A stretch of 52,770 bases of DNA from positions 1-52,770 of the forward strand of contig JAJDZZ010000049.1 of the NCBI GenBank assembly GCA_022824405.1, in the 5' to 3' direction. The position numbers were made by a program, and so were the translations under genes. The stretch is from Opitutales bacterium. Lineage in GTDB: Bacteria > Verrucomicrobiota > Verrucomicrobiia > Opitutales > UBA2995. The notes under the pieces were generated by a model, which did no database searches, had not been told where the DNA came from, and saw only the letters and a program-made list of their open reading frames with translations. Positions 5,328 to 17,000 of the stretch are shown in pieces (the stretch's first letter is position 1; the number at the start of each line of letters is the position of its first letter).

Positions 5328-6854
5328 ATGAGTATGAGCCAAGAAAGTGAACCAGAGCCTGCATCGCCGTCCAGGCTGAGGCAGGGACCTGTTCCGGCCG
5401 GAAGCGATGAGGCGACCGACGGGCTGCAGATGTCGCCGGATCGGATGCTCGACCTTGCGCGCCGAGCCGCCGAACTCGTTGTCAATCGAATCGAGTCCCT
5501 GCCTGGGGAATTGGCTTGGGATGGAGAATTCCGGCAGGGACTGCTCGATGATCTGATGGAGGATCCTCCCGAGAAAGGGCGGCCGGGCGAGGAGGTGCTC
5601 GATAGAGCCGCTCGGGATATCCTGCCGTTGGGGCTTCGCCTCGATCACCCGCGGTCGTTCGGGTTTATCCCATCCTCGCCCACTTGGCCTGGCATATTGG
5701 CTGATTTCATGGCTGCCGGCTATAACATCAATGCCTGCTCCTGGCTATGTGCCAGCGGCCCGAGCCAGCTTGAACTGGTAGTGATTGACTGGTTTCGACG
5801 CTGGCTCGGCTATCCGGAGGGCGCGGGCGGGTTGTTCACCAGCGGCGGTTCGGCGGCAAGCCTCGATGCGTTCGTTGCGGCCAGGGAAGCGGCCGGCCAT
5901 CCCCAGCGCGGGACTATTTACCTGAGCGATCAGAGTCACACGGCATTGCTGCGAGCGGCAAACATCGTCGGCATCCGCAGGGAGTGCATACGAAGGATCC
6001 CGAGCGACCGGAGTTTTCGTATGGATATGGAGACTCTGAAGCGCTCGGTGTCGCGGGACCGGGCGGATGGATACACTCCGGTGGCGATCTGCGCCAATGC
6101 CGGAACCGGCAGCACGGGGACCATCGACCCGCTTGGGGATATGGCGGAGTTCTGCTCGGAAGAAAGCATCTGGCTTCACGTGGATGCCGCCTACGGGGGG
6201 TTCGCCGTTTTGACCGAAGCGGGCAAGCGGCTCTTGCGCGGAATCGAGCGGGCCGATTCGGTTGGGCTGGACGCCCACAAGTGGTTATTCCAGCCCTACG
6301 AGGCGGGATGCCTCCTGGTTCGGGACATCCATACGCTGGAGACGGCATTCGAGCTTCGCCACGCAATGCTTCAGGACACCTATTGGGGAGCGAATCACCC
6401 CAATTTCTCTGTTCGAGGCCTTCAATTGAGCCGTTCCTTTCGAGCCTTGAAGGTTTGGATGTCGATTCAGACCTTCGGCATGGCAGCATTTCGCCGGTCC
6501 GTGGCCAATGCCATGGAGTTAGCCGTGCAGGCCGAGGCCTACATCCAAGCAAGCCCGACGCTCGAAGTCACCAATCCCGTTTCACTTGGAATAGTGTGTT
6601 TTCGTGTCAATCCTGCCGATGCAGCGTTCGAGGAGACCGCGCTGGAGGCGATCAACCGAAAGGTGCTTGCCCAGATCCTCTGGAACAACTCCGCCTTCAT
6701 TTCATCGACCTCGTTGCGCCGGAAATTCTCTCTAAGGCTCTGCATCGTTAATCATAATACGACTTGGGAGGATGTGCTCGAGACGCTCCAGGCTATTGAA
6801 CGCTTTGGCAGGGAGGAAGGTTCGCAAAGCTCTCCAATGAGGAAGGAGGAATAG
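5328..6854 (+). CDS. PLP-dependent group II decarboxylase (aromatic-amino-acid-decarboxylase-like)
   Basis: This 508-residue fold-type I PLP enzyme belongs to the pyridoxal-dependent decarboxylase family that includes aromatic-L-amino-acid, glutamate and cysteine-sulfinate decarboxylases. The FTSGGSAASLDA segment contacts the PLP phosphate. HVDAAYGGFA places Asp286 against the pyridine nitrogen, and DAHKWLF gives Lys318 as the Schiff-base lysine. The first 35 residues are charged and Pro-rich and look like an extension. No good ribosome-binding site precedes ATG 5328, and a second ATG lies at 5334. It is the leftmost gene of the RiPP island and converges on the halogenase-like gene. A role in decarboxylating Trp, Cys or a released core product is inference; an ordinary amino-acid decarboxylase is possible. 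It is not a LanD/PpcDC-type flavoprotein decarboxylase. Confidence 0.9.
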   Translation: MSMSQESEPEPASPSRLRQGPVPAGSDEATDGLQMSPDRMLDLARRAAELVVNRIESLPGELAWDGEFRQGLLDDLMEDPPEKGRPGEEVLDRAARDILPLGLRLDHPRSFGFIPSSPTWPGILADFMAAGYNINACSWLCASGPSQLELVVIDWFRRWLGYPEGAGGLFTSGGSAASLDAFVAAREAAGHPQRGTIYLSDQSHTALLRAANIVGIRRECIRRIPSDRSFRMDMETLKRSVSRDRADGYTPVAICANAGTGSTGTIDPLGDMAEFCSEESIWLHVDAAYGGFAVLTEAGKRLLRGIERADSVGLDAHKWLFQPYEAGCLLVRDIHTLETAFELRHAMLQDTYWGANHPNFSVRGLQLSRSFRALKVWMSIQTFGMAAFRRSVANAMELAVQAEAYIQASPTLEVTNPVSLGIVCFRVNPADAAFEETALEAINRKVLAQILWNNSAFISSTSLRRKFSLRLCIVNHNTTWEDVLETLQAIERFGREEGSQSSPMRKEE

Positions 6855-6983: not shown

Positions 6984-8255
6984 TCAGGACTGGCAGCCAA
7001 GTCCCTGAGACACCTGGCAATAACTGGTGAGGGGGACCGCGCACATCCGATTCCAGTCCGATTTGTCGATGACGGACTGGTTCATCAGTTCGATCATTTC
7101 GTCGAACTTGCCGAGCGCGTCGCAACCCACCGCTTCGGGGGCGGCCGCTTTTCTGTGCCGTGGCCAAGCGCGGGAACGGGCGTGGCGCCAGAATTTGCTG
7201 TCGTAGCGGGAGCCGCAGGAATAGTGCCAGCCGACGAACAGACCGTAGCGGAGCATGTTGTCGATGAGAAATCGATTGACTACCGGGGCGTCCCGTTCGA
7301 GGTGCTCCGCCGGACGATTGAGTCGTATGTGGAGAACCATCCCGATCTGCAACTGCGCCGATACGATTGCGGTTGCTTCGAGGGGTTCCATAAAGGCCGC
7401 AGCGTTGCCGATACGGGCCACCGCGCCATCGAAAATTTGACGGTGGACAAAATTGGGAAACGGAATGACGGCGCGTTGCTCGAATTCCGATATGCCATCG
7501 GTTTCAAGGAAAGCGTCAAAGTCCGATTCGACTTGCGCAAGGCTGGATAAATCGCGGTTGAAGATGTACCCGTAGGACGTGTGTACCGTCAAAGGAATGA
7601 CAAATATCCAACCGTGCGGGCGCGCCACGGCACGTGTGTAGGTAGGTTGCAGAAACGGCCCGTCCCCTTCTGCTCCGACCATCGTCGGACAGCGGCGGAT
7701 GACGGCTGTATTGGTGGGTATGAAGGAGATGTCTATGTGCCGGTCCGGATGAAGCTCTTTCGGAAAGCCGCGGGCATCGAAGACCAAGTCGTAGCGTTCC
7801 GAGGCCATGCCCTCGAACTCCACTAGAGCGCCACCCTCAACCCTGGAGATATTGAGCACTTTCGCGTCGATGTGACGCGCGCGGGCGCTTTCCTGCAGCA
7901 GGTCCGACATCGTGTCGGCGGAAAGGTGATAGGCGTAAGATACCTGTTGGGGCGTGAAGTAGTGGATAAATTCCCGATTGCGACGGCCCCATCCCTCAAA
8001 CGCCACCCCGTATTTACGGGTTCCATTCAGGCGTTTCTGGACGGTTTCATGGGGAAGACAAGTCAGTTTGCGCAATTCCTGAACGAGGCTCGGCCAACTG
8101 CCTTCTCCCACTCCGATAACCGGGATGCGGGAATCATAAATGTGGTGCAGTTCGTGGTCCCCGTCGGGGAGAAGACGGGTTACGCTGGCGGCAGCCATGG
8201 ACCCTGCCGTTCCTCGCCCGATAACTGCGATCTTCTGTAAGGATTGGGGATTTAT
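6984..8255 (-). CDS. flavin-dependent halogenase-like protein, non-canonical start
   Basis: The product resembles FAD-dependent tryptophan halogenases and related monooxygenases. Visible motifs are the dinucleotide-binding KIAVIGRGTAGSMAA (family consensus GGGTAGWMAA), IGVGEGSWPSL, and GTRKYGVAFEGW with a lysine at the position of the halogenase catalytic lysine. GWIFVIPL stands where halogenases have GWxWxIP, and AAAFMEPLEATAI follows. The FAD motif lies upstream of the first ATG (8196-8198), yet no ATG, GTG or TTG occurs between it and the in-frame stop at 8298-8300. An ATA codon at 8253-8255 sits exactly where a start would be expected, giving MNPQSLQKIAVIGRGTAG. I set the start there (423 residues, shorter than the roughly 500-540 of typical Trp halogenases). 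It may be an ATA-initiated gene or one whose start decayed. Trp of the adjacent precursor core is an attractive substrate, by inference. Confidence 0.78.
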   Translation of the reverse strand: MNPQSLQKIAVIGRGTAGSMAAASVTRLLPDGDHELHHIYDSRIPVIGVGEGSWPSLVQELRKLTCLPHETVQKRLNGTRKYGVAFEGWGRRNREFIHYFTPQQVSYAYHLSADTMSDLLQESARARHIDAKVLNISRVEGGALVEFEGMASERYDLVFDARGFPKELHPDRHIDISFIPTNTAVIRRCPTMVGAEGDGPFLQPTYTRAVARPHGWIFVIPLTVHTSYGYIFNRDLSSLAQVESDFDAFLETDGISEFEQRAVIPFPNFVHRQIFDGAVARIGNAAAFMEPLEATAIVSAQLQIGMVLHIRLNRPAEHLERDAPVVNRFLIDNMLRYGLFVGWHYSCGSRYDSKFWRHARSRAWPRHRKAAAPEAVGCDALGKFDEMIELMNQSVIDKSDWNRMCAVPLTSYCQVSQGLGCQS

Positions 8256-8336
8256 AACTGCAAATTGGATTTGGAAAGGGGCATTGTCAATTTTCCGCTA
8301 TAATTCCCAAATCAAAAATATCGCTCTTAATGGGAC

Positions 8337-8365: not shown

Positions 8366-8422
8366 TCTCCAAAGAAAATATTTTTTCTTCACGATCAACT
8401 AAATAAAATAAGGAGGAATACC

Positions 8423-8674
8423 ATGAAAAGTGGAAATGAAATGTTGCAACAGATTGTTGAAAAGTCTGCCCTGGATGCTGATTTCAGGCAACAGCTTATC
8501 GATAATCCAAAGGCCAGCATCAGTGCGGAATTGGGCATAACCATTCCCGAGTCGATGAACATCGAAGTTCATGAGAGCGACATGCAGACGGTGCATCTTG
8601 CATTGCCACCGGATCCGCATATCACCGAGGAGCAACTCGAAGCTGTTTCAGCGGGCCTTTGCTGCTGCTGGTAA
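8423..8674 (+). CDS. NHLP-leader RiPP precursor peptide, core LCCCW
   Basis: This 83-residue peptide has a nitrile-hydratase-alpha-like leader (residues 1-78), recognisable from DFRQQLIDNPKASI, ELGI, IEVHES and HLALPP followed by ITEEQLEAVSAG. The leader ends in an S-A-G site of the type C39 peptidases cut, leaving only Leu79-Cys80-Cys81-Cys82-Trp83 as core. A strong ribosome-binding site (AGGAGG, 8411-8416) lies 6 nt before the ATG, so high expression is expected. The complete NHLM exporter a few kilobases away, including a C39 peptidase, supports a secreted peptide product. An N-terminal domain homologous to this leader also occurs on the toroid enzyme at 9971-11278. No second precursor is visible in the island. 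Confidence 0.9.
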   Translation: MKSGNEMLQQIVEKSALDADFRQQLIDNPKASISAELGITIPESMNIEVHESDMQTVHLALPPDPHITEEQLEAVSAGLCCCW

Positions 8675-8824: not shown

Positions 8825-9943
8825 TTAGAAGGCCACCGCTCCGGATAGCACCATGAAGACATAGGCTTTGGCCCCGCGAAGCTGATTTTCAGCTATCACG
8901 AGTTTAATATGGTGGATGCCCCGAAGCATCACATAATTCCCGGACTTAGCGAAGAGGGTTGTCGGTTTCGAGACCCAGCCAGCCAGAGCCTTGAGCTTTG
9001 CCGGAACTACGAGGTCTTCCCTGCTCAGGGCTTCCAGGAACGGATCCCAATCGGTCAGGCCGTCGAGCCAATAACGTGAATCTTTGGTATACCTCTGTTT
9101 GACGATGAGGGTCAGACCGAGCGTCGGACCGAGACCGCCTTCCCGCACGTCAATATTCACCCCCGACCTGACAACATTGGCGCGTTCCTTGAATCGTGAG
9201 ACCACGGATTGGACGGCTGAGAGCTGACCCGGCCAACCCGTATCTCTCAGATAGGAACACAGTTCCTTCTCTGCCTTGAAGCCCATGACGGCCAGGCGGA
9301 CGGCCCTGGAGCGAGACGGGAACACACCGAAAGAATCCATCCGGGTATCTTCCGGCAGAGCCTGGTAAACGCGTTCGACCTTCTTAAGTTCGGTCTCATT
9401 CCTTTCCCAGCCCACGCAGGAGACGAGAGCGTCAACCACCGTAGCGACATCATTCACCTGATTATTGGCGCCTACAATGGGGCGTTCGCCGGGTCTCAGG
9501 AAAATGGCCGGATGCGGAGGTTCATCGTCCCGGGACGAACCGATGTCGTATTCCAGCATCAACTTGCGGCCGACGATGTGGCGCAGGGGCGAGTTATCGG
9601 TATCCATTTGCCTGAAGATCCGCGCGATGGATCTTGCGGTTTCATCCGTTCTGTCGGCCTTGGCGCGATCCTCGAAAACCGCCGCCGCTCGGGTCCCGCT
9701 GGCCAGGGAAACGCCGAAATCGGCCGCCGGGGCGGGTTGGTGCAGCGGCAGTTCAAAGCCGAATGGATGGGCGCCCATAGCGATCGGGTGTTGCCTGGCG
9801 CATTCGAGAACGCGCTCCCATTCCGGACCTCCGATGAGGATGGGGGAAATCCTGTTTCGAAAATGTCCAAGCAAGTCACCCATGGTGCCGCCCTCCTTGG
9901 CGAGACGGTCCTGGGTCAGTGTGATGGCTTGGTCGATATCCAT
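8825..9943 (-). CDS. RiPP-island protein of unknown family
   Basis: I do not recognise this 372-residue protein. It has no signal peptide, no membrane segment and no obvious nucleotide-binding or metal motif. Features that could matter are MLEYDIGSSRDDEPPHPAIF (about residues 130-150), GGLGPTLGLTLIVKQRY (about 269-285) and a C-terminal hairpin-like segment, RGIHHIKLVI followed by KAYVFMVL. It starts 27 nt after the toroid enzyme and is the last gene of the leftward operon, so it is probably translated with that enzyme and may be its partner. A prenyltransferase-like barrel is one speculative possibility; nothing in the sequence proves it. Confidence 0.85.
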   Translation of the reverse strand: MDIDQAITLTQDRLAKEGGTMGDLLGHFRNRISPILIGGPEWERVLECARQHPIAMGAHPFGFELPLHQPAPAADFGVSLASGTRAAAVFEDRAKADRTDETARSIARIFRQMDTDNSPLRHIVGRKLMLEYDIGSSRDDEPPHPAIFLRPGERPIVGANNQVNDVATVVDALVSCVGWERNETELKKVERVYQALPEDTRMDSFGVFPSRSRAVRLAVMGFKAEKELCSYLRDTGWPGQLSAVQSVVSRFKERANVVRSGVNIDVREGGLGPTLGLTLIVKQRYTKDSRYWLDGLTDWDPFLEALSREDLVVPAKLKALAGWVSKPTTLFAKSGNYVMLRGIHHIKLVIAENQLRGAKAYVFMVLSGAVAF

Positions 9944-9970: not shown

Positions 9971-11278
9971 TCAGGGGGCATTTTCAAGGATTTCGACGAG
10001 ACGCTCCAAAGCTTCGATACAAAAGGCAGAGGTCAGGGATTCCGACCCATGTCCTATCTGGCCTACGGCGCCCCATTTCAGGGATTGGTCGCCAAACGCC
10101 AGAAGCTCCGGCCAACTGCCATCCTCACGTTGCCAAGCCAGGAACCTCTCGATTTCGCATTTGGCATCGATGCGTTTGAGGCTGCCGACATTGTAGAGCG
10201 CCGCCATGGCTTGGGCGGTCTGAAGGATGTTGCCGAATTCTCCGCCCGGGTCGCGCAGGCCGAGAATACGATCTGCCAGTAGGGGGCGCAGTCGATTGAG
10301 GGCGGGCTGTGCGCGGATCATGGCACGGGTGGTGGCGTAGTAAATCGCGACCTTGTCCGGATACCACTTGGAGGAGCCTTCCAGCCGGTCCTCGGTAATC
10401 ATGGATTCCAACCATCGTTGGGCATCCCTGGTCTCGGGCCGATCGCCGAGGAAGGCGATTACGTTGGCATTGACTACGGGGTCGGCTTCGATACGAAAGG
10501 TCGAGACGACGTTGGGTTCGTCTTCCGCCAGCACCCAGGTCATGAAACGGCCCTTCTCGTCGCGATTCGCCAAAAATTTTGGGGTGTTCCTTTCCAATAA
10601 AATCCAGGGATGATTCCCAATGATGAGAGAACAGAGCGAGGTACTGTCGAGGTCCTGGGGCAGATGGCGGTAATAGCGCCAGAATCCCGGGTACTCCATC
10701 GTGTCGACCAGGTAGGCCTTGGTGCGGTCGCAGATGGCCCTGGCCTGCGGTTCGCTGCTGCTTTCCAGGGCAAGTAGGCAGAAAGCCGAAACGAACGGTG
10801 GCTTCTCGTAATGACGGGGTATGTCCGGATCGGCTATATTGAACCGGATGCAATGCCAGGCCCCGCTTAGTTCGATAGTCGATTCGATGAAGGACAAGCC
10901 CCGGCGGATGCTTTTTCTACCCTCTTTTACCAGAGCCCCGGAGGTGAGGGATCCCACCCTGGGAGCCGCCGGTTTGGCGGCGGGGGGGCGAATAGGGGGG
11001 GCTGGATCGTACATCGTCCTTTTGAGAAACTCGAGTGAGGCTGCGCCGGTCCTGGCCGCTTCCCGTTCTTCCGCGCTGAACCTACTCTTGGGGGGAAGCA
11101 CCAAATGCGTCGAGGCATCGGTTTCTTCATGCACGTGAATTTCTTGGCCCCGGTCCAGTGGCAAACCGAGTTCCCGCTCTAGCGCATCCTTGGGATTTGC
11201 CAGCAGGCGCGCGCGAAATTCACCATCGTTCCCGGCTTTTGCGAGAAGGCGTTCTGTCGCGTTGACGGGTTCTTTCAT
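9971..11278 (-). CDS. NHLP leader domain fused to a terpene-cyclase-like alpha-toroid enzyme
   Basis: Residues 6-80 are a leader domain like that of the precursor (FRARLLANPKDALERELGL, IHVHEE, HLVLPP), followed by a Pro/Ala-rich linker. Residues 120-435 show features of the squalene-cyclase/prenyltransferase-beta toroid: a QW motif (QREDGSWP, about 383-390), a DLDSTS motif (about 209-214) that recalls the DxDDTA acid motif of class II cyclases with one Asp replaced by Ser, and repeated helix-pair segments such as EADPVVNANVIAFLG. I chose ATG 11278, 4 nt after the exporter stop and behind GGAGG, because the upstream start at 11326 overlaps that gene. The zinc ligands of the other RiPP toroid, LanC, are not seen. 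Whether the leader domain docks with modifying enzymes, targets export or is a relic is unknown. Confidence 0.85.
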   Translation of the reverse strand: MKEPVNATERLLAKAGNDGEFRARLLANPKDALERELGLPLDRGQEIHVHEETDASTHLVLPPKSRFSAEEREAARTGAASLEFLKRTMYDPAPPIRPPAAKPAAPRVGSLTSGALVKEGRKSIRRGLSFIESTIELSGAWHCIRFNIADPDIPRHYEKPPFVSAFCLLALESSSEPQARAICDRTKAYLVDTMEYPGFWRYYRHLPQDLDSTSLCSLIIGNHPWILLERNTPKFLANRDEKGRFMTWVLAEDEPNVVSTFRIEADPVVNANVIAFLGDRPETRDAQRWLESMITEDRLEGSSKWYPDKVAIYYATTRAMIRAQPALNRLRPLLADRILGLRDPGGEFGNILQTAQAMAALYNVGSLKRIDAKCEIERFLAWQREDGSWPELLAFGDQSLKWGAVGQIGHGSESLTSAFCIEALERLVEILENAP

Positions 11279-11282
11279 GAAC

Positions 11283-14231
11283 TCAGGCGACTTGCCTCCT
11301 GACCAGTTCCTTGAATACCCCGTCAATCTCCATGAGTTCCCTGAAGGATCCGCTTTGTACGACTTTTCCAGCCTTCATCACATAGATGCGGTCAGCTTTT
11401 TCCAGTGTCGACAGTCTATGGGCGATTACGATCCGGGTCGAGGTCAGAGCGGTCAGGTTTTGCATTACTTTGGCTTGGCTTTCGTTATCCAGCCAATTGG
11501 TTGCCTCGTCAAACAGCATTATCCGCGGCATGCCGATTACCGAACGAGCGATGGTGACGCGCTGACTCTCGCCGCCGGACAGCACGGCTCCTCTTGTGCC
11601 GACCATGGTCATCAAGCCCATGGGCATGGCCTTGATCTGGTCTTCGATTTCGGCGGTTCGGGCCGCCGACCACACTTCCTCGGTGCCCACCCTCTCGTGG
11701 TGACTGACCAAATTGTCCCAGAGATCGTGGGGATGGAGTCCGACCGACTGCGGTACCGCGCCAATTTTCCGGCGCACCTGTTTCAGGTTAAGACGCCTCA
11801 GGTCGCGTCCGTCGTAATACACCGCGCCAGCGGATGGCCGGTCGATTGCAAGGGCGAGGCGAAACAAGGTGCTCTTACCCGCGCCTGACTCGCCCGCAAT
11901 GGCGACGAATTCGCCGGGACGGGCCCGAATCGTGACATCGTCGAGAATCAAAGGGCCGTCGGGGTCGTAGCGGAAGGAAATGCGGTCGAAGAGGACTTCG
12001 CCGCCAAGACGTTCAACCGGCTCGCCCTCGACCACGGTTTCAGGAACGGCGGAGAGGAGCGGGCGCATCTGATCAAACGCCGGCAGCATGGCGGCAATGG
12101 CGCCGAAGGACTCGCCGAGCCGGGCGATTGCGGTTTGAAAAACGATGAAGACGGTATAAACAACCAGAAAATCGCTCACGGGCACATTTCCGTTTCCCGC
12201 CGTTACCACTGCGAAAAGCAGTACCCCGCCGGCAAGAAAGGGAAGCGCGGCGCCAAATGCCCGGGCATGCCCTTCAAGCGCGCCCTGTTCAATCTCCGCG
12301 CGTTTCTGCTTTCGATAATCCCGCGCCCAGATGGCAAAAGCGGAACCCTCCGCGTTTTCCACTCGAAGCTTGGCGATACCGCCAATGATCTGGAATAGTC
12401 GGCCGGCTACGCGACGTATGGCGCGGATCATCCGGCCATAGGGCGAAATCTGGCGCAAACCGAGAAGGATGGTGACCAGCAGCGAAGCCAGGCTGAAGAC
12501 CAGGACGATGCGCCCGAGGGTGGCATCGTAGAAGAAAATGAGGCCAAAAACCGGCAAAAGAAAAATGATCGACAGCAGGCTGTCGGCGACGATTCCCTGA
12601 ATGCCGTCGCGCAGGTTCTGGAACGACATTCCGGACATGGCCAGGTCACCTGCCGGATGCCGATGCAGAATGTTTGAAGGAAGGCGCATGAGGCGGTCCC
12701 AGAAAGCAGCTTCCACCCGCGAGGCGGAGCGTCCCTCAAGCCGCATCATGGCGTTGCTTTGCAGCAGGTGCAATAGCGCCCCGAGCAAGCCGAACCCCGC
12801 CAGGGATATGGCAACGGCGTAAAGGGGTCCGGCGCTTCCACCTGCCGCGACATGATTGGCAACAAATCCCAGCGCGAGCGCCGGAAGCAGTTTTATCAGG
12901 CCGCCAGGAATTCCGGCGAGCACCAGCCGCGCAAGTTCCGGGCCCGACCCGTGCATGGCCATTCCCAGCAGATCCGCCGGTTTCACCTTCCCCGACGGCA
13001 ATGGCCGATAGAACATCCAGGCTTCCTCCTTCAACGCTCCGGCGCGTTCCGCCGTAAGCCGGACCCGTCGTTTGGTGACCGGATCGATTTCCCGGTATCG
13101 CCCGAACATTCCCGGCAACAGCGCAACGGGCTGGCTGTCCTCGGCGCGGAATGCCAGCAGTGCGTTACTGTCGCCTCGCCACCATTTGCCCTCGGCTGTG
13201 AAACGCACGCGCCGGGCCCTGAGACCTGAGGCATCGAGGATATCGAGGAGGTCGACGGGAGAATCGGAAGGCCGAGAGGGCGCTGGAATCCTGAATTTGA
13301 TACCTTCATGGCGCCCGATAATATTCAGGGCATCGGCCAGGACCGTGTCCTCGACTTTGGCATCTCGGTCAATGGGTAGGTCATAGATATTGAAAAGCCG
13401 CTGTCGCGCAGCTTGTTCCGCTGTGCGGCGGCTGGTTGTGCGCTCGCGTTCGAGGTTCGCATCGTCGACTACGGCCAAACGGCGGTTAAGGCGTTCCAGA
13501 TTGAATGCAACCGTGTGAAAAGAAGCGAGCGCCGAAAGCAGCATGCCTTGCCGCGCCAATGTTTCGGATGACCTGCCCGAAACTGTGGCCTCGTTGAACA
13601 AGGTGAGCCAGCTCGTCCGCGTCAGGGGTATCACAGCCTGTTGAGGGGCGCATGCCTCGGCCAGTTGGGTTTGGTCGACCATATCCATGAACAGGCTGGA
13701 TCCGCCGGATTGTTCGGATACCCAGACGACATCCCGTTGTACGGACAGGGTGGTAGGAGGGGTCAGGGTCTGGGTCTGGCCGGGTTTGGCCAGAGCAGTC
13801 GCACGTGGAAGGTGGGTTACAAACCGCGAAAGTGTTTTGGAAATGGCGGTCAGCCAGGTATCGGTCTGTTTGGCCAGTTCTGCAGGATGAACCTTGGAAA
13901 GCAAGGGCGCCGGCATGCGTTTCAATAGCGTGCCGGGCAATCCTTTGGCAATCAGGCTGAGTGTCGTGTCTTTGTAGCTGTCGTCTTGTTCGTCGGGAGC
14001 GACGCCCGGCAGTAACCTGCCCGATTGGCAGCGCACCAGGTGCTGCGGAGCCGCATGTTCAACCCCATCCTTGAATTCGACCAGGAAAAGATCCACCGTG
14101 CCCCGGTCGATGAACCAAACACTATTCGGATCGTCCAGTTCCACCGGCAGGTTTCCGGCGCAAGGCACGGATGTGCCGGAGCGAGCCGCGAGTTCGGCAA
14201 TCGACAGGTATTTCGGATTTTCCTCCCGCAT
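11283..14231 (-). CDS. NHLM-type ABC transporter, ATP-binding/permease protein without peptidase
   Basis: This 982-residue half-transporter matches the architecture of the second ABC protein of NHLP/NHLM microcin export systems. A long N-terminal region of about 430 residues (with a CRP-like start, GTSVPCAGNLPVELDDPNSVWFIDRGTVDLF) precedes a transmembrane domain (about 440-720). The C-terminal ATPase carries Walker A GESGAGKST, signature LSGGESQR and Walker B IMLFDEATNWLD. Its ATG overlaps the stop of the C39 transporter, so the two are translationally coupled and probably form a heterodimer. The role is secretion of the modified peptide across the inner membrane. Confidence 0.93.
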   Translation of the reverse strand: MREENPKYLSIAELAARSGTSVPCAGNLPVELDDPNSVWFIDRGTVDLFLVEFKDGVEHAAPQHLVRCQSGRLLPGVAPDEQDDSYKDTTLSLIAKGLPGTLLKRMPAPLLSKVHPAELAKQTDTWLTAISKTLSRFVTHLPRATALAKPGQTQTLTPPTTLSVQRDVVWVSEQSGGSSLFMDMVDQTQLAEACAPQQAVIPLTRTSWLTLFNEATVSGRSSETLARQGMLLSALASFHTVAFNLERLNRRLAVVDDANLERERTTSRRTAEQAARQRLFNIYDLPIDRDAKVEDTVLADALNIIGRHEGIKFRIPAPSRPSDSPVDLLDILDASGLRARRVRFTAEGKWWRGDSNALLAFRAEDSQPVALLPGMFGRYREIDPVTKRRVRLTAERAGALKEEAWMFYRPLPSGKVKPADLLGMAMHGSGPELARLVLAGIPGGLIKLLPALALGFVANHVAAGGSAGPLYAVAISLAGFGLLGALLHLLQSNAMMRLEGRSASRVEAAFWDRLMRLPSNILHRHPAGDLAMSGMSFQNLRDGIQGIVADSLLSIIFLLPVFGLIFFYDATLGRIVLVFSLASLLVTILLGLRQISPYGRMIRAIRRVAGRLFQIIGGIAKLRVENAEGSAFAIWARDYRKQKRAEIEQGALEGHARAFGAALPFLAGGVLLFAVVTAGNGNVPVSDFLVVYTVFIVFQTAIARLGESFGAIAAMLPAFDQMRPLLSAVPETVVEGEPVERLGGEVLFDRISFRYDPDGPLILDDVTIRARPGEFVAIAGESGAGKSTLFRLALAIDRPSAGAVYYDGRDLRRLNLKQVRRKIGAVPQSVGLHPHDLWDNLVSHHERVGTEEVWSAARTAEIEDQIKAMPMGLMTMVGTRGAVLSGGESQRVTIARSVIGMPRIMLFDEATNWLDNESQAKVMQNLTALTSTRIVIAHRLSTLEKADRIYVMKAGKVVQSGSFRELMEIDGVFKELVRRQVA

Positions 14232-16441
14232 CAGCCTGACTTTACCAGTTTGTAATAGGCGCCATGCCGGTCCGCAATCAACTTCTCGTGCGTGCCGCGT
14301 TGCACTTCGACCCCTTTATCGAGCACGATAATTTCGTCGCAATCCCGTACCGTGCTCAGCCGGTGCGCCACGATCAGACAGGTGACGCCGCGACGCCGCA
14401 GGGCATCATCGACGTATTCCTCGGTCGCGGCATCGAGTGCGCTGGTTGACTCGTCCAGGATGAGCACGGTTGGATTGCCCACAAGGGCGCGGGCGATTTC
14501 CAGCCTTTGCCGCTGCCCGCCACTGAAATTCACTCCGCCTTCCTCGACCTGGGTCGCATATCCCTGCGGCCTGAGCAGGATTTCCTCATGAATGCAGGCG
14601 TCCCGCGTGGCGGCAATGATGACTTCATCCGGAACGGCAGGGTTCCACAATGTAATGTTGTCGCGCAGGGACGCGGAAAAGAGCACAGCCTCCTGATCCA
14701 CCATGGAAATTGACCTCCTCAGCACCTCCTCCGGGATCTCCTCCCGCTCATGGCCGTCAAACAGGATTTGGCCCGACCAGGGCTGACAGATTCCCGAAAC
14801 CAGGCGGGCCAGGGTCGATTTGCCGGAACCGCTGGGGCCGACCACGGCAACCCGCTGCCCGGGTTTGATCCGGAGGTTGAAATCCTGTATCAGAGGCGGT
14901 CGGCTCTTGTTGTAACCGAAAGTGACGTTGCGCAGTTCGAGCCGGCCCACGAGCTGAAGCTGGCCGTTGAAGGTGGGGATTGAATCCGATTCGGGGCTAC
15001 GGCGATTGAAAACGGGGTCTTCAGCGGATTTGGAGATGTCTTCCAGTCGTTGCAAATCGGTTGCGAGGGTCTGGCGTTGGTCGGCGAACCCCAAAAAACG
15101 CCCGACTGGCGCCAGGAACATCTCTGCCAGGATATAAAACCCGACCAGGGTCCCCAAACTCATTTCTCCACTCAAGACCAGACTTCCCCCGACACCCAGG
15201 ATGGCGGCGCTACGTAATAGGGCGACCAGTCCCGGAAGCGCGTTATTGACCGAGCCCAGTTCGGAATACAACTGTCGCGCATGCAGTTCGCGCGCCTGCT
15301 GACCGCTCCATCGCGAAAAGAACCGGTCATCCGACCCCGTCATGCGCAGGTTGTCGGCATGATTTAACATCTGCATGCCGACGCCGATGAGCAAACCCTG
15401 TTCGCGCCTCATGGCCTGGCTTCTCACAGCCCGGAGCCCGTTGAGGAAATAGGCCAGCAATCCGTGCAGAAGGGCCAGAGCCAGGACAATCAGAGAGAGC
15501 AGGACGTCATAGAGGAACATGGCGACGAGCAGCACTGCGCTCATTGCCATGTCGATAAGGAGCACGAGAAACTGATCCGTCAGATTCTTCGCGATTCTGT
15601 CTATGGAAGAGACTCGGTCGGTCAAATCTCCGACCAGCCTGTGTTGGAAAAAATCCACCGGCAACCGCAGCAGCTTCGATACGCTCCGGTTGTAACCTGT
15701 CACGGAAATTCGAACGGCCAGCCGCTTGAGAAATCGGTGTTTGAACAAAGAAAGGACGTATACCAGAACGCCGGCGCCAAGCAAGGCCGCCACCAATCCG
15801 CCCCAAGGTCCATGGTTTTCCAGTACATCGTCCACGAAAATACCCAGGGTTGCTGGAACGACGAGCGCCAGTAGAGTCAACATGACTCCACAGGCAATCA
15901 CCCCGGTGAGCACACGCCATGATCCGGTGAGCAAGGCGTTCAATTGGCTGAACAGGCCAGGCCGTTCCCCACCAGGCTTGAAACCTGTCCCGGGTTTGAA
16001 TCGCAGGGCAATTCCACTGTAGCCCTTGTTGAATTCCTCCTCGGAAATGGTGCGCCGGCCCGTGGCCGGGTCATTGAGATGGAAATTGCGGCTATCGAAC
16101 CCTTCGAGGACGACGAAATGACTGTATTGCCAAAACAAAATCTGAGGTAAGGGCAGCTTTTTCAGTTGATCGGGGTTCACGCCGAGTCCTCGGCACTCCA
16201 ATCCATAGTGCTTGGAGGCGCGAAAGATGCTCGCGGCGCTGCTACCGTCGCGGCTCACCTCGCATTTTTCCCGCAGTTCGGTAAGTGGCACCCATCGCCC
16301 GAAGTAGGCCAGTATGCTGCCGAGGCAGGCGGCGCCACATTCTGACGCGTGCATCTGCAAAAGAATGGGCGTGGTTACCCTCCGTTTCGAAGTCTCGGAC
16401 GCGGCCATATTGCTCGTCCCACTGGAGACGCGCGGCCGCAT
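14231..16441 (-). CDS. NHLM-type ABC transporter with C39 peptidase domain
   Basis: This 736-residue exporter carries an N-terminal bacteriocin-processing C39 peptidase. The catalytic Cys is about residue 35 in ASECGAACLGSILAYFGRW, the His lies in YSHFVVLEGF and the Asp in LNDPATGRR. A six-helix membrane domain and an ATPase follow (GPSGSGKST, FSGGQRQRLEIARAL, LILDESTSALD). It would cut the leader of the NHLP precursor, probably after SAG, and export the core. ATG 16441 is preferred because it follows the preceding stop by one nucleotide; an upstream ATG at 16462 would overlap the adaptor gene, and ATG 16408 is a further option. Confidence 0.94.
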   Translation of the reverse strand: MRPRVSSGTSNMAASETSKRRVTTPILLQMHASECGAACLGSILAYFGRWVPLTELREKCEVSRDGSSAASIFRASKHYGLECRGLGVNPDQLKKLPLPQILFWQYSHFVVLEGFDSRNFHLNDPATGRRTISEEEFNKGYSGIALRFKPGTGFKPGGERPGLFSQLNALLTGSWRVLTGVIACGVMLTLLALVVPATLGIFVDDVLENHGPWGGLVAALLGAGVLVYVLSLFKHRFLKRLAVRISVTGYNRSVSKLLRLPVDFFQHRLVGDLTDRVSSIDRIAKNLTDQFLVLLIDMAMSAVLLVAMFLYDVLLSLIVLALALLHGLLAYFLNGLRAVRSQAMRREQGLLIGVGMQMLNHADNLRMTGSDDRFFSRWSGQQARELHARQLYSELGSVNNALPGLVALLRSAAILGVGGSLVLSGEMSLGTLVGFYILAEMFLAPVGRFLGFADQRQTLATDLQRLEDISKSAEDPVFNRRSPESDSIPTFNGQLQLVGRLELRNVTFGYNKSRPPLIQDFNLRIKPGQRVAVVGPSGSGKSTLARLVSGICQPWSGQILFDGHEREEIPEEVLRRSISMVDQEAVLFSASLRDNITLWNPAVPDEVIIAATRDACIHEEILLRPQGYATQVEEGGVNFSGGQRQRLEIARALVGNPTVLILDESTSALDAATEEYVDDALRRRGVTCLIVAHRLSTVRDCDEIIVLDKGVEVQRGTHEKLIADRHGAYYKLVKSG

Positions 16442-16442
16442 C

Positions 16443-17000
16443 CTATAATCGCCTCCTTCCAAAAAGCGCCACCGGGGGTTGCCTTCCCAATTTTATGATA
16501 ATCCGGCATTCCCTGCTGGCAAGGGAAGGAAATTCCAAGTCTTCACCCAGGGCAATAGCGAGGCGGTGCACGGACCCTGGGGCCAGGGTATCAAGCGCTT
16601 CCGGCCCATCCTTCATGGGTGGGGCGAGAACGGCGATTGCGGCGACCGCTCCATCAAGGGTTCTTGCCCCTCCACCTGTCACGGCCAGCTCTATCGAGGC
16701 TGGCATGCCGGCTTCGATCTGCGGCGCCACGTCCTTTTCGACCCAGACCCAGGCTTGTACGGATCCGTTGCTCTCAAACTGGTTTTCGCCGTGTTCGACC
16801 AGCACCCCCTCAACCGCGACCTCACGGGCTATGCTGCCAAGGAAGAGCCATCCCGCCAGAATGAAAAACACCAAGCCGATGGCGGCGACTAGCAGACGCT
16901 CCCGCGGTGTGGAAATGGTCAGCAACCGGTCGAGTTGTTCACGCTTTTCCTTTGCTTCGGCAACTGTGTTGTGAAATGAGCCAAATGGATTATTGAACAC
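16443..17000 (-). CDS. short HlyD-like adaptor of the NHLM export system
   Basis: This 185-residue membrane-anchored protein has a basic coiled N-terminal segment (VAEAKEKREQLDRLLTIST), one transmembrane helix (LLVAAIGLVFFILAGWLFLG, about 37-56) and a periplasmic beta-rich part with an IEAGMPASIEL segment like the beta-barrel of HlyD-type adaptors. It is much shorter than typical periplasmic adaptors and shows no room for the long alpha-hairpin that reaches an outer-membrane channel. First gene of the leftward operon, one nucleotide before the C39 transporter. It probably couples the two ABC proteins to the periplasm or envelope. Confidence 0.82.
   Translation of the reverse strand: MFNNPFGSFHNTVAEAKEKREQLDRLLTISTPRERLLVAAIGLVFFILAGWLFLGSIAREVAVEGVLVEHGENQFESNGSVQAWVWVEKDVAPQIEAGMPASIELAVTGGGARTLDGAVAAIAVLAPPMKDGPEALDTLAPGSVHRLAIALGEDLEFPSLASRECRIIIKLGRQPPVALFGRRRL

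Follow-up and report, generated by a model that had tools for sequence, protein, structure and literature searches.

What is made from a precursor peptide that ends only five residues after the SAG at which its leader would be cleaved, and which of the surrounding genes contribute to the product? The question is raised by the gene at positions 8423–8674 of the window, the whole stretch of 52,770 nt that was analysed. The features on which the argument depends are listed below.

6984–8297, minus strand: SrpI-like flavin-dependent tryptophan halogenase (PF04820, 2.2e-44), upstream of and divergent from the precursor gene
8411–8416, plus strand: AGGAGG ribosome-binding site of the precursor gene, read from the sequence, 6 bases 5' of the ATG
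8423–8674, plus strand: SrpE-type NHLP (proteusin) precursor, 83 aa, leader 1–78 and core 79–83
8657–8671, plus strand: core LCCCW, the same in 81 of 81 sequences and matching the published SrpE core
8825–9943, minus strand: protein with the ABBA (PT-barrel) prenyltransferase fold, 372 aa, assigned by fold; candidate tryptophan prenyltransferase
9971–11281, minus strand: NHLP-leader domain (N-terminal) fused to a class II terpene cyclase, ~436 aa, catalytic motif D209-L-D211-S-T
11283–14231, minus strand: NHLM ABC transporter permease/ATPase (TIGR03797)
14231–16411, minus strand: NHLM ABC transporter with a C39 peptidase (TIGR03796), likely leader protease and exporter
16443–17000, minus strand: short NHLM HlyD-like secretion protein (weak TIGR03794 match)

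The precursor and its predicted modifying enzymes

The pentapeptide core with a C-terminal tryptophan, which the initial annotation had placed after VSAG, belongs to a real open reading frame, as the NHLP leader (TIGR03793, 2.7e-20 in a profile search) and the orthologues agree. The NMR structure of the proteusin MprE7 (8TB1) gave a 43-bit match to the precursor (4.8e-10). The protein ends in LEAVSAG, followed only by LCCCW and a TAA stop codon (8672–8674). The AGGAGG that had been noted before the gene is present at 8411–8416. The core span had been given as 8654–8671; LCCCW itself was correctly read, but that start is one codon early and takes in the glycine codon, the true start being 8657.

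The gene encodes SrpE, precursor of the already described srp peptides of marine sponges, and the strongest clue to this identity is the SrpI-like halogenase directly upstream, which had been overlooked. SrpE is a sponge-symbiont proteusin with the core LCCCW, in which the three cysteines are converted to thiazolines by the YcaO cyclodehydratase SrpC and the terminal tryptophan acquires bromine at indole C6 through the leader-dependent action of the flavin enzyme SrpI (PMC10858898, PMC10286304); the heavy modification of the core that had been expected from its sequence is thus borne out by the published chemistry. In the SrpE leader, SrpI binds the L(X)4L motif that spans residues 67–72 (PMC10858898). 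The segment HITEEQL (66–72) of the window precursor aligns without gaps with NLTEEQL (66–72) of the published SrpE, and the SrpI-binding motif is kept as the conservative variant I67-xxxx-L72, with Ile67 found in most orthologues. Thiazolines and 6-bromotryptophan are predicted for this strain by analogy with the published homologues.

The window halogenase was classed as SrpI-type by PF04820 and its motifs; the catalytic lysine and the PLE(S/A)T motif are present in the aligned sequence. Its frame is open for ~420 codons, with ~80% identity to its orthologues. No ATG, GTG or TTG was found in frame before the flavin motif (window 8297–8230, minus strand), GTT occupies the start position at which the aligned orthologues have GTG, ATG or TTG, no Shine-Dalgarno sequence precedes that position, and no second halogenase copy was found elsewhere in the genome. 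Because the gene has no canonical start codon and no second copy exists, bromination in this strain is uncertain. The in-frame stops seen inside many halogenase matches proved to be only the natural stop, located a few residues short of the query end. Among the best 80 of 137 SrpE loci (described below), a halogenase lies within 10 kb of SrpE in 43, and 31 of the 37 other genomes carry one elsewhere (at least 66% identity, some of them fragments).

No YcaO was found in the 52,770-nt window. The single YcaO of the genome, on contig C70, belongs to the SagD type and carries a TOMM leader-binding domain; its neighbour there is a 799-aa desaturase-like protein. Many other srp loci have YcaO and this desaturase between the genes for the 372-aa protein and the NHLP-domain protein; since here they sit on C70 instead, the cluster is split, with the srp genes of this genome divided between contigs C10 and C70. 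Such splitting is common in other genomes, and 12 of the 14 genomes without a full YcaO copy near SrpE have one elsewhere. The 799-aa protein (L086 8824–11223, minus strand, contig C70) combines a membrane fatty-acid desaturase domain with a GlnE-like region, GlnE being glutamine synthetase adenylyltransferase, and relatives of it occur at 45 of the 80 srp loci.

Conservation and spread of SrpE

Among 84,980 species genomes scanned with patterns that left the core out, 137 related places turned up, and the best 80 of these were compared. Every one of the best 80 is 83 aa long and ends in SAGLCCCW, so that the alignment of orthologues proposed in the initial annotation shows a core constant in both length and sequence, with no variable or absent termini among these 80. 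A sequencing error at the stop codon (8672–8674) was ruled out, as all 81 sequences (the window and the best 80) are equal in length. The 81 DNA sequences are all distinct, with a synonymous pS of 0.41–0.59 overall and about 0.41 in the core, and the core contains zero amino-acid changes. Because the synonymous sites have diverged while the core amino acids have stayed unchanged, we conclude that selection maintains both the length and the sequence of the core. Its invariance across phyla speaks for a single conserved role of the product.

Going by record titles, the best 80 represent at least six other phyla, namely Pseudomonadota, Acidobacteriota, Gemmatimonadota, Myxococcota, Nitrospinota and Rhodothermota, and judging by their names the bins look like products of sponge metagenome projects. 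The wide distribution in sponges is not claimed here as new, since the abstract of the founding 2021 srp paper (JACS) reportedly already describes a wide spread among sponge bacterial taxa.

A search of 388 genomes of the window's phylum, which by gene content is probably Verrucomicrobiota, and of the sole other genome of the window's genus yielded no further SrpE, only distant NHLP peptides. The window SrpE, halogenase, prenyltransferase and transporter are mostly 63–87% identical to their counterparts in other phyla, and SecA in the same comparison is 36–62% identical by segment (short matches to the C-terminal tail aside). As the srp identities across phyla exceed those of SecA, the sequences point to horizontal acquisition of the window srp genes. 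In the prenyltransferase tree the window sequence pairs with a gammaproteobacterial one (SH-aLRT 95), and the phylum labels change 6 times against a minimum of 3; multiple origins are not forced by the well-supported branches, and the tree alone is no proof of transfer. Carriage on a plasmid or phage was also considered and rejected, with no close match to the srp genes in plasmids, phages or viral contigs.

A candidate prenyltransferase and an NHLP-fused cyclase

The 372-aa protein had no Pfam match, even at an E-value of 10, and its family gave no relatives in the PDB by sequence-profile search; the prenyltransferase assignment therefore rests on fold. An AlphaFold2 model built from an alignment of 55 orthologues (pLDDT 88.7) consists of five beta-beta-alpha-alpha repeats forming a ten-stranded antiparallel barrel ringed by helices. 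The best structural match in VIA-align is the indole prenyltransferase MpnD (Z 16.6, rmsd 4.6 over 306 residues). Foldseek and VIA-align both rank aromatic or indole prenyltransferases of the ABBA barrel first throughout. All 50 rows listed from VIA-align are aromatic prenyltransferases, and below the 132 chains at Z ≥ 8 comes a gap, with a single chain between 5 and 8. Many invariant Arg, Lys and Tyr residues of the family lie in the barrel strands. The ABBA fold is well supported by the model, and we propose that the protein is a predicted tryptophan prenyltransferase.

In the model of the adjacent protein (9971–11281), an NHLP domain at the N-terminus leads into a class II terpene cyclase. 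The NHLP domain was detected by profile search (3.2e-12) and is 33% identical to SrpE (E-value 1e-10). The cyclase part resembles drimenol synthase (Z 29.7, rmsd 2.5, alpha/alpha barrel) and MstE (Z 26.9). A sequence-profile match to drimenol synthase (7e-6) aligns the invariant DLD(S/T) with the catalytic DLDTT, and the residue changed in the D333N structure of drimenol synthase is the middle Asp of this motif. The DxD(S/T)T motif is intact in the window cyclase and DxD(S/T) is invariant among its orthologues. The domain architecture is as if the enzyme had taken the place of the precursor core.

Both genes accompany SrpE widely among the best 80 of 137 loci: the prenyltransferase gene is near SrpE in 64, and of the remaining 16 genomes 14 carry it in full elsewhere and one as a fragment; the cyclase gene is near SrpE in 58 and was found elsewhere in 14 of 21 others searched, many contigs in the missing cases being short, so that absence is weak evidence.

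Other neighbours were also surveyed. A PLP-dependent decarboxylase (5328–6854, plus strand), considered as a tailoring enzyme, was rejected, as it is not conserved at other srp loci. An MMPL/RND transporter lies beside SrpE in 16 of the 80 loci (L012 10499–12922, plus strand) and a DUF1302-like predicted outer-membrane barrel in 15 (L008 3847–5106, minus strand); their recurrence suggests that a lipid-like product is trafficked. A Rieske ring-hydroxylating oxygenase is found beside SrpE in 7 of the 80 loci (L067 11377–12585, plus strand, and six others), possibly representing an extra srp tailoring step.

Proposed product, alternatives and related systems

We propose, with a probability of roughly 0.7, that the window carries SrpE of the srp pathway and that the product is a brominated tri-thiazoline pentapeptide bearing a cyclised isoprenoid, probably on the tryptophan. 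As known for the family, the NHLP leader of SrpE would recruit the enzymes through its (I/L)xxxxL motif at 67–72. The C70 YcaO would convert Cys80–82 to three thiazolines and the SrpI-like halogenase would brominate Trp83, both reactions having been demonstrated experimentally for the published srp homologues and the latter being uncertain in this genome. The 372-aa ABBA-fold enzyme would prenylate the core, most likely at Trp83, and the NHLP-fused class II cyclase would close the prenyl chain, possibly once the C70 desaturase-like protein has oxidised it. Finally, the ABC transporter with the C39 peptidase would, as is general for its family, cleave after SAG and export the product. Prenylation and chain cyclisation are inferred from fold, catalytic motif and genome-wide co-occurrence; the proposed scheme leaves bromination, prenylation and cyclisation unordered, and prenylation could occur on another residue or in some hosts only.

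A narrower product is conceivable, consisting of Leu-(thiazoline)3-6-bromo-Trp only, with the prenyltransferase and cyclase making a separate meroterpenoid or persisting as catalytically dead scaffolds. Thiazoline formation and bromination are indeed the sole experimentally shown chemistry. However, both additional genes accompany SrpE in most genomes, even where unlinked, the cyclase combines an NHLP domain with an intact, invariant DxD(S/T) motif, and prenylating RiPP systems are known from mpp, NctPC and ChrPC, all of which makes this restriction unlikely. Far less probable still is the analogy with PEARL-type scaffold peptides drawn in the initial annotation, in which amino acids are added to the tail and a small alkaloid is cut off. 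The very short core, its C-terminal tryptophan and the nearby tryptophan halogenase would fit such a pathway, but LCCCW is the ribosomally encoded core of the published SrpE, modified by YcaO and SrpI, and a YcaO is present in the genome. PF04738 (LanB-type dehydratase N-domain) was unmatched in this genome, as it was in the control genomes.

It is also possible, although doubtful, that the pathway is decaying in this genome, the halogenase start having been lost, the cluster broken and no brominated product made; such decay would be compatible with the proposed isoprenoid product for the family as a whole. The GTT at the homologous start position with no in-frame ATG, GTG or TTG, the missing Shine-Dalgarno sequence, the single halogenase copy and the distribution of the genes over C10 and C70 all favour it. 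On the other hand, the halogenase frame has stayed open over its ~420 codons at ~80% identity to its orthologues, splitting is frequent in other genomes, and a base error in the draft genome or a rare ATA or ATT start may account for the missing codon.

For the proposed isoprenoid product we extend the reading to the whole family at about even odds: the srp metabolite, with its invariant LCCCW in at least seven phyla, would be a brominated tri-thiazoline with a cyclised isoprenoid on the tryptophan, made by a hitherto unrecognised ABBA prenyltransferase and a leader-domain cyclase. Held jointly with it, and at the same balance, is the idea that the cyclase's own copy of the leader domain serves as a docking device, undescribed for terpene cyclases in the literature examined; this could be a new way of bringing a tailoring enzyme to a peptide. 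An isoprenoid on the srp peptide is unmentioned in the srp literature consulted, relative to which the prenyltransferase and cyclase assignments are new, although the founding 2021 paper may have named the genes. The srp pathway is among the most widely shared in sponge microbiomes, yet what it makes is cryptic. Should a prenyltransferase and an NHLP-fused cyclase act in it, the mass and hydrophobicity expected in sponge extracts change completely, and the isoprenoid could explain why no brominated pentapeptide was found. The analysis thus adds a testable prediction, namely that the srp product bears a cyclised isoprenoid.

In comparison with the published srp cluster (SrpE/SrpC/SrpI; Nguyen et al. 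2021, 2023, 2024), the window shares an NHLP leader of equal length and numbering, the identical LCCCW core with its C-terminal Trp, an adjoining SrpI-type halogenase and a SagD-type YcaO in the genome. It differs in Ile67 for Leu67, in a halogenase without a canonical start codon, in the division of its genes between two loci, and in belonging to a phylum whose sampled genomes are otherwise without SrpE.

The mpp cluster of Moorena producens (MppE/M/I/C/D/G) likewise joins a long-leader RiPP to an SrpI-like Trp brominase, the ABBA prenyltransferase MppC, a terpene synthase and an oxygenase, and MppC geranylates Trp C5 in a leader-dependent manner (PMC11791876, PMC12715784); mpp is, however, a lanthipeptide system with a Nif11 leader and LanM, whereas srp relies on an NHLP leader and on thiazolines made by YcaO. 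NctPC and ChrPC prenylate Trp and cyclise the chain (PMC13290415), giving peptides that bear polycyclic isoprenoids (Hubrich et al. 2024), and the combination of a prenyltransferase with a class II-like cyclase on a RiPP Trp is shared with srp; in the enzymes as described there both activities are fused, whereas in srp they reside in separate proteins, the cyclase carrying an NHLP leader domain. In Paenibacillus alvei, the NHLP precursor PalX is prenylated by PalQ on its C-terminal Trp (PMC10853753); the NHLP leader and the C-terminal Trp are shared with SrpE. The fold of PalQ is that of an isoprenoid synthase, in contrast to the ABBA barrel in srp, and the three-gene PalX/PalQ cluster is described without the halogenase, YcaO and class II cyclase that characterize srp.
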